From an archaeon (GTDB lineage: Archaea > Thermoproteota > Nitrososphaeria > Nitrososphaerales > Gagatemarchaeaceae), in assembly GCA_021819035.1 (NCBI GenBank), contig JAKASL010000001.1, positions 558,001 to 622,000 on the forward strand: DNA of 64,000 nucleotides, given 5' to 3'. Within the stretch, counting starts at the first letter, position 1. Each line of letters starts with the position of its first letter. Positions 27,156 through 30,337 of this stretch are shown here, in pieces. The notes under the pieces were generated by a model that saw nothing but the letters and a program-made list of their open reading frames with translations, ran no database searches and had not been told where the DNA came from. Both the position numbers and the translations under genes were made by a program.

Positions 27156-28019
27156 TTGTCCGCCCGTGCACCTCTGAGGCTACTGGGTATAGGCCGAGAG
27201 GACGCCATAAAACCGAAGGTCACGTCGACCATCAAAGAGATCGAATACCACCGCAAGGAGCTGGAGAACATCCGGGCCCGGGTCGAGCAGAGGCGGAAGG
27301 CGCTCTTCGACACGGCCCTGAGGGCCATGAAGACCAAGGACCAGTCCAAGGCGAGCGTCTACGCCAACGAGTGGGCAGAGCTCAGGAAGGTAGGGAAGGT
27401 GGTATACGCGAGCGAGCTCGCCCTGACCCAGGTGGTCCTGAGGCTCGAAAGTATAGCCGAGGTCGGGGACGTGATGTCTCACATGAGCACGGCCTTCAAG
27501 GTACTACACAAGGTCAACAAGACGGTCCAGGGGATCGCCCCGTCGCTTGACCACGCGTCCGACGAGATAAACACGGCGCTGAGCGAGACCATGGCAGGTA
27601 TGGGGAAGGTCTCCCCCGACATCCAGCTGAACATCCAGACAGACGACGCCGGGGAGCTCATCGAGCAGGCGAGGAGGCTCGCCGAAGAGAGGGCCGACGA
27701 GATGAAGCGGACGCTAATGGTCTCCCCCAGCGTGATCAAGCGCGAGGCCCCCGAGCTGCAGGAGCGGACCCCGCTGCTGGCGGCAGGCGACGACGACGAG
27801 GAGGAGTCCCAGATACTCGGCGCCCTCTACTCCCCACGGCCTCACCCCGACGACGCCGAGGAGCGGGTGCTACAGTACGCGGCCATACACAACGGGAACG
27901 TCGACATCACAGACGCCTCCTCTGTCCTTAAGATGCCCTCCGACGAGGTGGAGCAGGCGATGCTGACGCTCATGGCCCAGGGGAAGGTCAAGCTAGGAGA
28001 GGGGGGGTCGGAGAGTTGA
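27156..28019 (+). CDS. cdvB: ESCRT-III-like division protein CdvB with winged helix
   Basis: A 287-residue division protein. The Snf7-type core spans about residues 20-185 (IEYHRKELENIRARVEQRRK, SVYANEWAELRKVGKVV). A linker with PELQERTPLL may be the MIM2-like site for the CdvC MIT domain. The C-terminal winged helix lies at about 232-283 (EERVLQYAAIHNGNVDI, PSDEVEQAMLTLM). In Sulfolobus the winged helix binds CdvA; no cdvA is in the window. The start is TTG. The stop overlaps the cdvC start (TTGA), so CdvB and CdvC are translationally coupled. Confidence 0.88.
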   Translation: MSARAPLRLLGIGREDAIKPKVTSTIKEIEYHRKELENIRARVEQRRKALFDTALRAMKTKDQSKASVYANEWAELRKVGKVVYASELALTQVVLRLESIAEVGDVMSHMSTAFKVLHKVNKTVQGIAPSLDHASDEINTALSETMAGMGKVSPDIQLNIQTDDAGELIEQARRLAEERADEMKRTLMVSPSVIKREAPELQERTPLLAAGDDDEEESQILGALYSPRPHPDDAEERVLQYAAIHNGNVDITDASSVLKMPSDEVEQAMLTLMAQGKVKLGEGGSES

Positions 28020-30337
28020 GCGTGGTCGCCGCCAAGGAGCTGGAGGACGACGCGAAGAAGTACGCTTCAGAGGCTATCAGGCTCGACTCGCAGGGCGCCC
28101 ACGGCATGGCGATCCAGATGTACCAGAAGGCGATATCGACCCTGGTGAAGCTGGTGCACCTGTACCCGGACTATCGGCTCAACAGGCAGTACACCGAGCG
28201 CGCCATGGCCTACCAGGAGAGGGTCAGGGCCATCCAGGCGGCCCACGGCCTCATCCCTCAGGACCAGCCCACCGAGACCGAGTGGACCCCCACGGTGGGA
28301 GCGAAGCCGGGCCCTGCCCAGGGCCCTACGTCTTCGACCCCGAACTCCCCAGCGGGACCGCAGGTGGTGCAGCAGCTGAAGGCCTCGTTCAACGAGCTCG
28401 TCGTCACCGAGAAGCCCGACGTCAAGTGGGACGACGTCATCGGCCTCGAGGACTGCAAACAGGCCATCCGCGAGTCGATAGTCTTCCCCTTCCTCCGCCC
28501 CGACCTGTTCAAGCTGGGGTGGCCCAGGGGGATACTCCTCTACGGCCCGCCGGGCTGCTTTGACGAACAGACAGAGATCCTTACCAAAAGGGGGTGGAAG
28601 AAATACACCGAACTGGCCGACGACGAGGTCGTGGCCACGCTCAACCCCGCCACGAACGAGCTCGAGTACCACCCGATCGTACGAAAGATCCAATATCGCT
28701 ACGAAGGGAAGATGTACCGCCTGGAATCCGCCCAGGTCAGCCTGATGGTCACACCAGACCATCAGCTCTGGGTGGGGAAGAAGGCTCAGCAGGGCAACGT
28801 GAAGTACGATTTTGCCCACCCAGACGACGTGTTTGGAAGTGAGGACGGGGGGACTTGTCCATACTACAAGAAAGATGCCAAGTGGCGCGGTATCGGCAGG
28901 GAATTCGTTCTCCTCCCCCAGCGCGAGTCAGGGAGTGGGCGAAATCATGAGGAGATCAGGATACCGATGTCCGAATGGGCCCCGTTCTTCGGGCTTTGGC
29001 TTGCCGAGGGCTACACCGCATACTGGGGAGGCAATTACCACGTCGGGATAAGGAACGTGGACCAGGACCTCCTCGACTTCGCATACGACAGCCTCAAGAA
29101 GTGGGGGCTCGACCCGCATTTCTCTTCAGACGGGCGCGTGACAGTCCTCAACAAGCAACTATACGAGCTCCTCCGGCCGATCGGCGACAAAGACACCAGA
29201 TACATTCCAGATGAAATCAAGGACCTGCCCCCAGCCCTCCTGCGAAGCGTCCTGGAGTATTACGCGAGAGGCGATGGGGCGCACGAGGTAGACGAAGCCG
29301 AGGTTGGCGCCACCGGGGTGCGTTGCCAGACCTCCTCGCCGCGCTTGCGGGACGACCTGATGGAGATTTCCCTCAAGGCGGGACTGGCGTGCAACTATGT
29401 GGTCCAGACGGAAGCCGGTGCCGCAGCCACCATCGTCGGAGCGGATGGAAAGGAGACGACGATAGCTCGGACGACGGCCAACTTCAGGCTGAGTATCCTG
29501 TATCGCAGAGGCGAAACGCGAGTCGACAAGCCCAGCATAGAGCAATGGGAGTACTACTCGGGGATGGTCTGGGACGTGACCGTCCAGAACCATGTCATCT
29601 ACGTCAGGCGCAACGGCAAGGCCGTATGGAGCGGCAACTGCGGCAAGACGATGGTGGCGGCGGCCACGGCCGCTGAGATAGACGGCTACTTCATCTCCGT
29701 CGACGCGGCGTCGATCATGAGCAAGTGGCTCGGCGAGGGGGAGAAGAACGTGGCCAAGCTCTTCAACAACGCCAGGAAGATGCTGTCAGACAACAAGCCG
29801 GTGATAGTGTTCGTAGACGAGATAGACTCCCTGCTCGGCACCAGGGGCCAGGAGGTAGGGGGGGAGGTGAGGGTCAGGGACCAGTTCCTGAAGGAGACCG
29901 ACGGCATCAACGACAAAGGGAAGAACCTCCACATGTATGTCATAGGGGCCACGAACAAGCCCTGGTCCCTCGACCCTCCCTTCCTCCGCCGCTTCGCCAA
30001 GAGGATACTCGTCCCACTCCCTGACAACGAGGCGCGCATGGCCCAGTTCAAGCTCTATACGGCGCCGCTCACCCTGGCCGAGGACGTCGACCCCGCGACC
30101 CTGGCCAGGCTGAGCGAAGGGTACTCGGGGAGCGACATCAAGGACATCTGCCAGGGGGTCCAGCTGAGGGTGGTCAGGGAGCTGTTCAAGTCAGGGAACG
30201 CCCTCGACAAGGAGTCGACCCCGCGGCCGATAGACATAAGCGACTTCAAGGAGATAATGAGGACGAGGAAGCCTTCTGTGTCCCCTGAGATGCTCCGCGC
30301 CTACCAGCAGTGGACGAACAACTTCAGCGCGCTCTAG
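28016..30337 (+). CDS. cdvC: Vps4-type AAA ATPase CdvC containing an intein
   Basis: The precursor is 773 residues; removing the 361-residue intein leaves 412, normal for CdvC. An N-terminal MIT domain covers about 1-80, followed by a Pro-rich linker. The AAA domain starts near DVKWDDVIGLEDCK. Walker A is GPPG/CGKT, split by the intein after Gly180. Walker B is VIVFVDEIDS (596-605) and the arginine fingers are in FLRRFAKR. The Vps4 C-terminal helix is present. CdvC remodels ESCRT-III filaments in cell division, and it is inactive until splicing restores the P-loop. The TTG start overlaps the cdvB stop. Confidence 0.95.
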   Translation: MSVVAAKELEDDAKKYASEAIRLDSQGAHGMAIQMYQKAISTLVKLVHLYPDYRLNRQYTERAMAYQERVRAIQAAHGLIPQDQPTETEWTPTVGAKPGPAQGPTSSTPNSPAGPQVVQQLKASFNELVVTEKPDVKWDDVIGLEDCKQAIRESIVFPFLRPDLFKLGWPRGILLYGPPGCFDEQTEILTKRGWKKYTELADDEVVATLNPATNELEYHPIVRKIQYRYEGKMYRLESAQVSLMVTPDHQLWVGKKAQQGNVKYDFAHPDDVFGSEDGGTCPYYKKDAKWRGIGREFVLLPQRESGSGRNHEEIRIPMSEWAPFFGLWLAEGYTAYWGGNYHVGIRNVDQDLLDFAYDSLKKWGLDPHFSSDGRVTVLNKQLYELLRPIGDKDTRYIPDEIKDLPPALLRSVLEYYARGDGAHEVDEAEVGATGVRCQTSSPRLRDDLMEISLKAGLACNYVVQTEAGAAATIVGADGKETTIARTTANFRLSILYRRGETRVDKPSIEQWEYYSGMVWDVTVQNHVIYVRRNGKAVWSGNCGKTMVAAATAAEIDGYFISVDAASIMSKWLGEGEKNVAKLFNNARKMLSDNKPVIVFVDEIDSLLGTRGQEVGGEVRVRDQFLKETDGINDKGKNLHMYVIGATNKPWSLDPPFLRRFAKRILVPLPDNEARMAQFKLYTAPLTLAEDVDPATLARLSEGYSGSDIKDICQGVQLRVVRELFKSGNALDKESTPRPIDISDFKEIMRTRKPSVSPEMLRAYQQWTNNFSAL
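28556..29638 (+). mobile_element. Intein with LAGLIDADG homing endonuclease in the CdvC P-loop
   Basis: Intein residues 181-541 of the CdvC precursor. Block A starts at Cys181 (CFDEQTEILT). Block B has the TxxH motif T246-H249. Two dodecapeptide endonuclease motifs are FFGLWLAEGY (acid Glu331) and LLRSVLEYYARGDG (acid Asp420). Block F has DVTVQNH with His526. Block G is SGN/C with Asn541 and +1 Cys542. The penultimate residue is Gly540 instead of the usual His. Both endonuclease acids are present, so homing may still be possible. Codon use is less GC-rich than the surrounding extein. Confidence 0.93.

Follow-up and report, generated by a model that had tools for sequence, protein, structure and literature searches.

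The gene for the CdvC/Vps4-type ATPase in the analysed archaeal DNA (a stretch of 64,000 nucleotides, hereafter the window) is interrupted within its Walker A motif by a 361-residue intein, which very likely splices and, as a homing element, has very likely spread among members of this genus. The open reading frame (28016-30337, forward strand) codes for 773 residues with the Pfam domains AAA, AAA_lid_3 and Vps4_C above their cut-offs and MIT just short of it (27.2 bits versus 30). The top NCBIfam match of the precursor was cell_div_CdvC (NF041006; E 2.6e-142), with 474 bits at a cut-off of 650, a shortfall that is expected because the CdvC protein is split by the insert. The CdvB-like gene immediately 5' of it matched Snf7 with E 3.9e-6 (27.1 bits versus a Pfam cut-off of 27.3) and was the sole Snf7 match in its own assembly (27.7 bits in the genome-wide scan). 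Based on the domains, the top family match and the adjoining CdvB-like gene, the host is classified as the CdvC/Vps4 cell-division ATPase, its presumed division role being assigned by homology.

The insert comprises 1083 bases (361 codons), is in frame with the host without any stop, and splits the Walker A motif as GPPG/C...GN/CGKT between Gly180 and Cys542, exactly as an earlier note on this DNA had claimed; the open reading frame, the NCBIfam profile TIGR01445 (intein_Nterm; 25.8 bits with the precursor and 27.7 bits with the insert alone, cut-off 24.5) and eight same-site copies agree on this. The residues named in that note (Cys1, TxxH, Glu331, Asp420, His526, Asn541/Cys542) were likewise found at their places. 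Conservation is given below for 56 aligned rows, i.e. the 63 full-length rows (only those matching both ends of the profile, the eight CdvC inteins and a few near-copies among them) minus seven excluded manually, namely near-copies plus three divergent ones. The features are:

27156-28019, + strand: CdvB-like ESCRT-III gene, immediately 5' of CdvC, its stop overlapping the CdvC start (Pfam Snf7)
28016-28555, + strand: N-extein of CdvC with MIT domain, linker and AAA start, ending ...YGPPG (ORF reading, Pfam)
28556-29638, + strand: intein, 361 aa (TIGR01445, eight same-site copies, predicted model matching the TliVMA and PI-PfuI inteins in Foldseek)
28556-28597, + strand: block A, CFDEQTEILTKRGW, with the putative nucleophile Cys1 (Cys in 56/56 rows)
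28751-28762, + strand: block B, TPDH, with Thr66 (55/56 rows) and His69 (56/56 rows)
28976-29011, + strand: LAGLIDADG stretch 1 (WAPFFGLWLAEG), acid Glu151 (precursor Glu331) at 29006-29008
29240-29278, + strand: LAGLIDADG stretch 2 (LLRSVLEYYARGDG region), acid Asp240 (precursor Asp420) at 29273-29275
29324-29326, + strand: Cys257, specific to CdvC inteins (8/8 CdvC rows, 0/48 others)
29390-29392, + strand: Cys279, specific to CdvC inteins (8/8 CdvC rows, 0/48 others)
29567-29593, + strand: block F, VWDVTVQNH, with His346 (precursor 526; His in 8/8 CdvC rows, 36/56 of all rows)
29627-29638, + strand: block G, WSGN, ending Gly360-Asn361 (precursor 540-541; Asn in 56/56, Gly in 53/56 rows)
29639-30337, + strand: C-extein of CdvC, first residues CGKT (Cys+1), with AAA, lid and Vps4_C (Pfam, NCBIfam)

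Judged by its sequence, the insert is an intein of class 1 type that contains a LAGLIDADG homing endonuclease. Cys1, the Thr66/His69 pair and the Asn361/Cys+1 junction are present in all eight CdvC inteins. Inteins of class 3 are described as having no nucleophile at position 1 and a WCT triplet (PMC5050341), and this mechanism was rejected on account of the invariant Cys1; block F position 340 is occupied by Asp in seven and by Cys in one of the CdvC rows, and by Cys in 41 of the 56 rows overall. The predicted model contains the two LAGLIDADG helices (residues 138-151 and 226-240), each ending in an acid: position 151 is Glu or Asp in 52/56 rows and position 240 is Asp in 50/56, the CdvC inteins having Glu151 and Asp240 without exception.

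The penultimate His that is usual, albeit not obligatory, in class 1 is replaced by Gly360 in all eight CdvC inteins, from which slow or conditional splicing had been proposed beforehand. This proposal found no support: the C-terminal pair was Gly-Asn in 60 of the 63 full-length rows (Ser-Asn in two, Leu-Asn in one) and, when the CdvC inteins are set aside, in 52/55 relatives from other hosts, so that the insert belongs to an intein family in which a penultimate Gly is the rule. The mycobacteriophage RDF intein, equally with a penultimate Gly, is described as fully spliced at time zero, its Gly-to-His mutant requiring more than 5 hours for about half splicing; the same paper states that the block F His can assume the role of the penultimate His and that other inteins react differently to such changes (PMC5050341). 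Since a class 1 intein is thus documented to splice completely without the penultimate His (PMC5050341), Gly360 is no bar to class 1 membership and an interpretation as splicing defect was rejected; the RDF precedent removes the reason to doubt prompt splicing rather than proving promptness.

A CdvC match (E<=1e-50) was obtained in 21 of the 31 genomes of the genus searched, eight of them with the intein and 13 with an empty site. The remaining ten genomes are the same ten in which the neighboring AspRS gene is lacking, and the CdvC region is therefore probably missing from these assemblies. All eight inserts consist of 361 aa with Cys as first residue, Gly-Asn preceding CGKT, and no stop (the G118 copy reaches the contig edge 14 codons beyond the intein), whereas the 22 intein-free CdvC loci fetched from genus, family and order all read GPPGCGKT. 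As seven further congeners possess a homologue of identical length at the same codon boundary and these 22 loci are uninterrupted, a chance origin of the insert is excluded; the 13 empty congeners among them show that splicing would restore the native motif. Among the matches listed for 201 genomes of the order, the CdvC frames outside the genus were not long enough to hold an intein this large, and among those listed for 398 genomes of the phylum no CdvC other than that of the window was broken at the P-loop.

Each of the eight intein-bearing genomes yielded a single CdvC match at E<=1e-50; a second, intein-free copy was rejected for these incomplete assemblies (the window's own is 88.2% complete) at this threshold. 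In consequence, CdvC activity should depend on splicing, and in this respect the earlier note was right; its extension to cell division depending "entirely" on splicing was overstated, because the genome also contains two ORFs of the tubulin/FtsZ family besides CdvC. The kind of intein is known, and P-loops are, as had been assumed, well known as preferred intein sites (PMC5874633, PMC5050341). For CdvC as host protein, the literature searched (InBase and most subscription papers lying outside) contained no report of an intein, nor for archaeal Vps4, i.e. the allele is not an already well documented one there. The genome described in PMC3189178 is given there as devoid of inteins and of ESCRT.

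Among the intein-bearing G000, G163 and G094, omega was 0.03-0.08 for CdvC and 0.05-0.12 for the splicing blocks of the intein; for CdvC of intein-free congeners the median was 0.10 (dS was usable in 48 of 78 pairs). An ATPase with a permanently interrupted Walker A motif would be unlikely to keep such constraint, and purifying selection on CdvC thus indicates that the intein very probably splices. That the gene is instead non-functional, with the insert unspliced and CdvC being lost, is scarcely credible: apart from the interruption itself nothing points in this direction, the omega values of the interrupted genes do not exceed those of the intein-free lineages, and none of the eight copies contains an internal stop.

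The distribution of the intein within the genus requires five presence/absence changes on the CdvC+AspRS tree of the 21 genomes, at least four of which are forced by the starred branches; G025, for instance, is intein-bearing and its near sister G044 (100/100) is empty. Presence on the tree was neither scattered nor clustered beyond chance (56 of 500 label shuffles were as low). As the unrooted topologies of intein and host hardly differ, the case for transfer rests on divergence and not on branching order. Synonymous divergence was compared in ten chosen pairs out of 28 (in the broader genus set of 28 pairs, those with G118 lack CdvC values). Between G000 and G025, dS amounted to 0.21 (0.15-0.27) for the intein, 0.82 (0.68-1.06) for CdvC and 0.77 (0.58-0.95) for AspRS; the respective values were 0.27/0.66/0.78 for G151-G025 and 0.27/0.60/0.62 for G000-G151, and in all pairs of these three genomes the bootstrap intervals of the intein were separate from those of both genes. 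Intein dS was also below CdvC dS, with separate intervals, in G163-G025 and G094-G025; for G151-G118 the intervals overlapped (0.80 versus 1.07). In the other four of the ten pairs (G000-G163, G000-G094, G109-G097, G000-G097) the intein was as diverged as CdvC or more, and it is therefore not simply a slowly evolving sequence. Identity rises at the edges of the intein (e.g. 87 | 96 ... 97 | 87 percent for G151-G025), and its GC3 (0.72-0.82) was lower than that of CdvC (0.79-0.92) in 8/8 genomes, by 0.06-0.17 in all but G118, where the deficit was 0.02. Pure vertical descent combined with losses, although allowed by the branching order, was rejected because of the dS contrasts; according to these sequence comparisons, intein transfer between at least three lineages of the genus would be the simplest account. 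The G094 intein is more diverged than the G094 CdvC, so that the continuous presence of one copy in the clade of G094 is an assumption.

The endonuclease region evolves under looser constraint in this clade (omega 0.24-0.35 among G000, G163 and G094, compared with 0.09 for G151-G025), which makes homing by the very copy of the window less sure. It is possible, if rather unlikely, that the intein of this genome still splices while its endonuclease has lost its activity or is losing it, the copy persisting by descent after an earlier sweep; this reading shares its splicing half with the preferred one, and the probabilities assigned to the two overlap. Besides the endonuclease values it can draw on a linker omega of 0.43-0.89 among the same three genomes, on the near-congruence of the intein and CdvC trees, and on the Pfam profile LAGLIDADG_3, which reached 15.2 bits in the window copy (cut-off 22.5) and exceeded the cut-off in six of seven other intein-bearing proteins scanned (from other hosts). 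A Pfam cut-off is, however, a profile threshold and no catalytic feature; both catalytic acids are retained in all eight CdvC inteins, the upper bound of the endonuclease omega was below 1 in 7/7 bootstrapped pairs, and intein dS is low across lineages, all of which speaks against decay.

The two cysteines confined to the CdvC inteins, Cys257 and Cys279, are the only hint of a special regulation. Together with the P-loop site, at which the RadA intein of Pyrococcus horikoshii with its conditional splicing also resides (PMC5790916), they could suggest that conditional splicing, e.g. redox-dependent, controls CdvC, and hence division, at the post-translational level in the manner of a switch. 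This is improbable, since 13 of the 21 congeners with CdvC manage without the intein, the penultimate Gly is ordinary in the family, and both cysteines lie within the endonuclease half; that regulated CdvC splicing, perhaps through these cysteines, would gate ESCRT disassembly and cell division is more improbable still.

For a splicing and homing intein, the following course would be expected. Once the precursor has folded, Cys1 would form the thioester at the N-terminal junction; the P-loop Cys of CdvC itself would act as +1 nucleophile, and Asn361 would cyclise aided by the block F His346 instead of a penultimate His, releasing a seamless CdvC with GPPGCGKT. The endonuclease would cut empty cdvC alleles at the DNA coding for the P-loop, and the intein would be copied into the cut allele by repair.

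In the intein tree, the CdvC inteins are monophyletic (100/100), with inteins hosted by TIGR00375-family proteins as their sister group (97/96). Relatives of 24-36% identity occur on viral contigs and within archaeal proteins that belong to other families; an intein profile searched against 398 genomes of the phylum gave matches in at least 20 including the own one, which was the only match located in CdvC among the loci inspected. Among genome contigs, eight relatives were found, namely the seven other intein-bearing congeners and a distant full-length copy (28% identity, end CGN/C) on a contig of an Oscillatoriaceae cyanobacterium (L041). Hosts identified by scanning were a TIGR00375-family protein, a Hel308-like helicase, PurD and UDP-sulfoquinovose synthase (seven proteins scanned; others named by shared flanks). 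PurD carries inteins of similar kind at two sites, PSTGEMG/ (L133-L137, L139, L143) and PLEWT/ (L140, L149, L151), the host having been scanned for L133 and L140 and assigned by common flanks for the remaining loci; UDP-sulfoquinovose synthase carries a related intein in three congeners (L146, scanned; L147 and L148, by identical flanks). Beyond the window, the own genome has another intein-like insert (contig C3, 301228-302388), which ends FCGN/T; it lies in an ORF for NAD+ synthase that matched NF010587, NAD_synthase and, weakly, Hint_2. The archaeal family seems to be rich in inteins within metabolic enzymes.

With CdvC, the ESCRT/Vps4 cell-division machinery joins the proteins invaded by inteins, again at a P-loop. 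The eight occupied and 13 empty alleles of one genus constitute a natural set on which one can test directly what it costs a division ATPase to carry an intein and how the intein passes from species to species.

The AlphaFold model of the intein (mean pLDDT 89.1, pTM 0.88; HINT and LAGLIDADG intein match) resembles complete inteins with endonuclease: its best PDB matches in Foldseek were TliVMA, PhoVMA, 2cw7, PI-SceI and PI-PfuI (E 1e-15 to 1e-9, TM-score 0.50-0.64 by query length); a PDB search by sequence returned a single insignificant match (E 0.63). TliVMA, PhoVMA, PI-PfuI and PI-SceI have the two-domain fold in common with the modeled CdvC intein and differ from it in sequence (9-15% identity) and host protein, the CdvC intein moreover having a penultimate Gly. 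The latter feature is shared with the mycobacteriophage RDF intein, a class 1 intein without penultimate His (PMC5050341); the mycobacteriophage class 1 inteins reside, in contrast, in viral proteins, and the likeness is one of described residues (PMC5050341). Nearest to the CdvC inteins are those in the TIGR00375-family protein from other Thermoproteota as well as from a different genus of the family, with 33-36% identity and the same Gly-Asn ends, but with another host gene and another site (S/C...GN/SDPPMNW, Ser+1); this host family was scanned for L131 only (206.9 bits versus a cut-off of 326.6, the protein being split) and assigned to L086-L090 by the flanking motif. The nucleotide-binding loop is occupied as well in the Hel308-like helicase of the same archaeal family (L091, L132, L138; host scanned for L091), where the intein lies immediately 5' of the P-loop SGKT. 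These inteins group elsewhere in the intein tree, where their placement is weak, and direct derivation of the CdvC intein from the Hel308-like P-loop intein of the same genus was rejected on this grouping, the deep branches of that tree being weak. The RadA intein of Pyrococcus is also located in the nucleotide-binding loop, like the CdvC intein, but is a mini-intein without endonuclease (PMC5790916), unlike the two-domain element predicted here.
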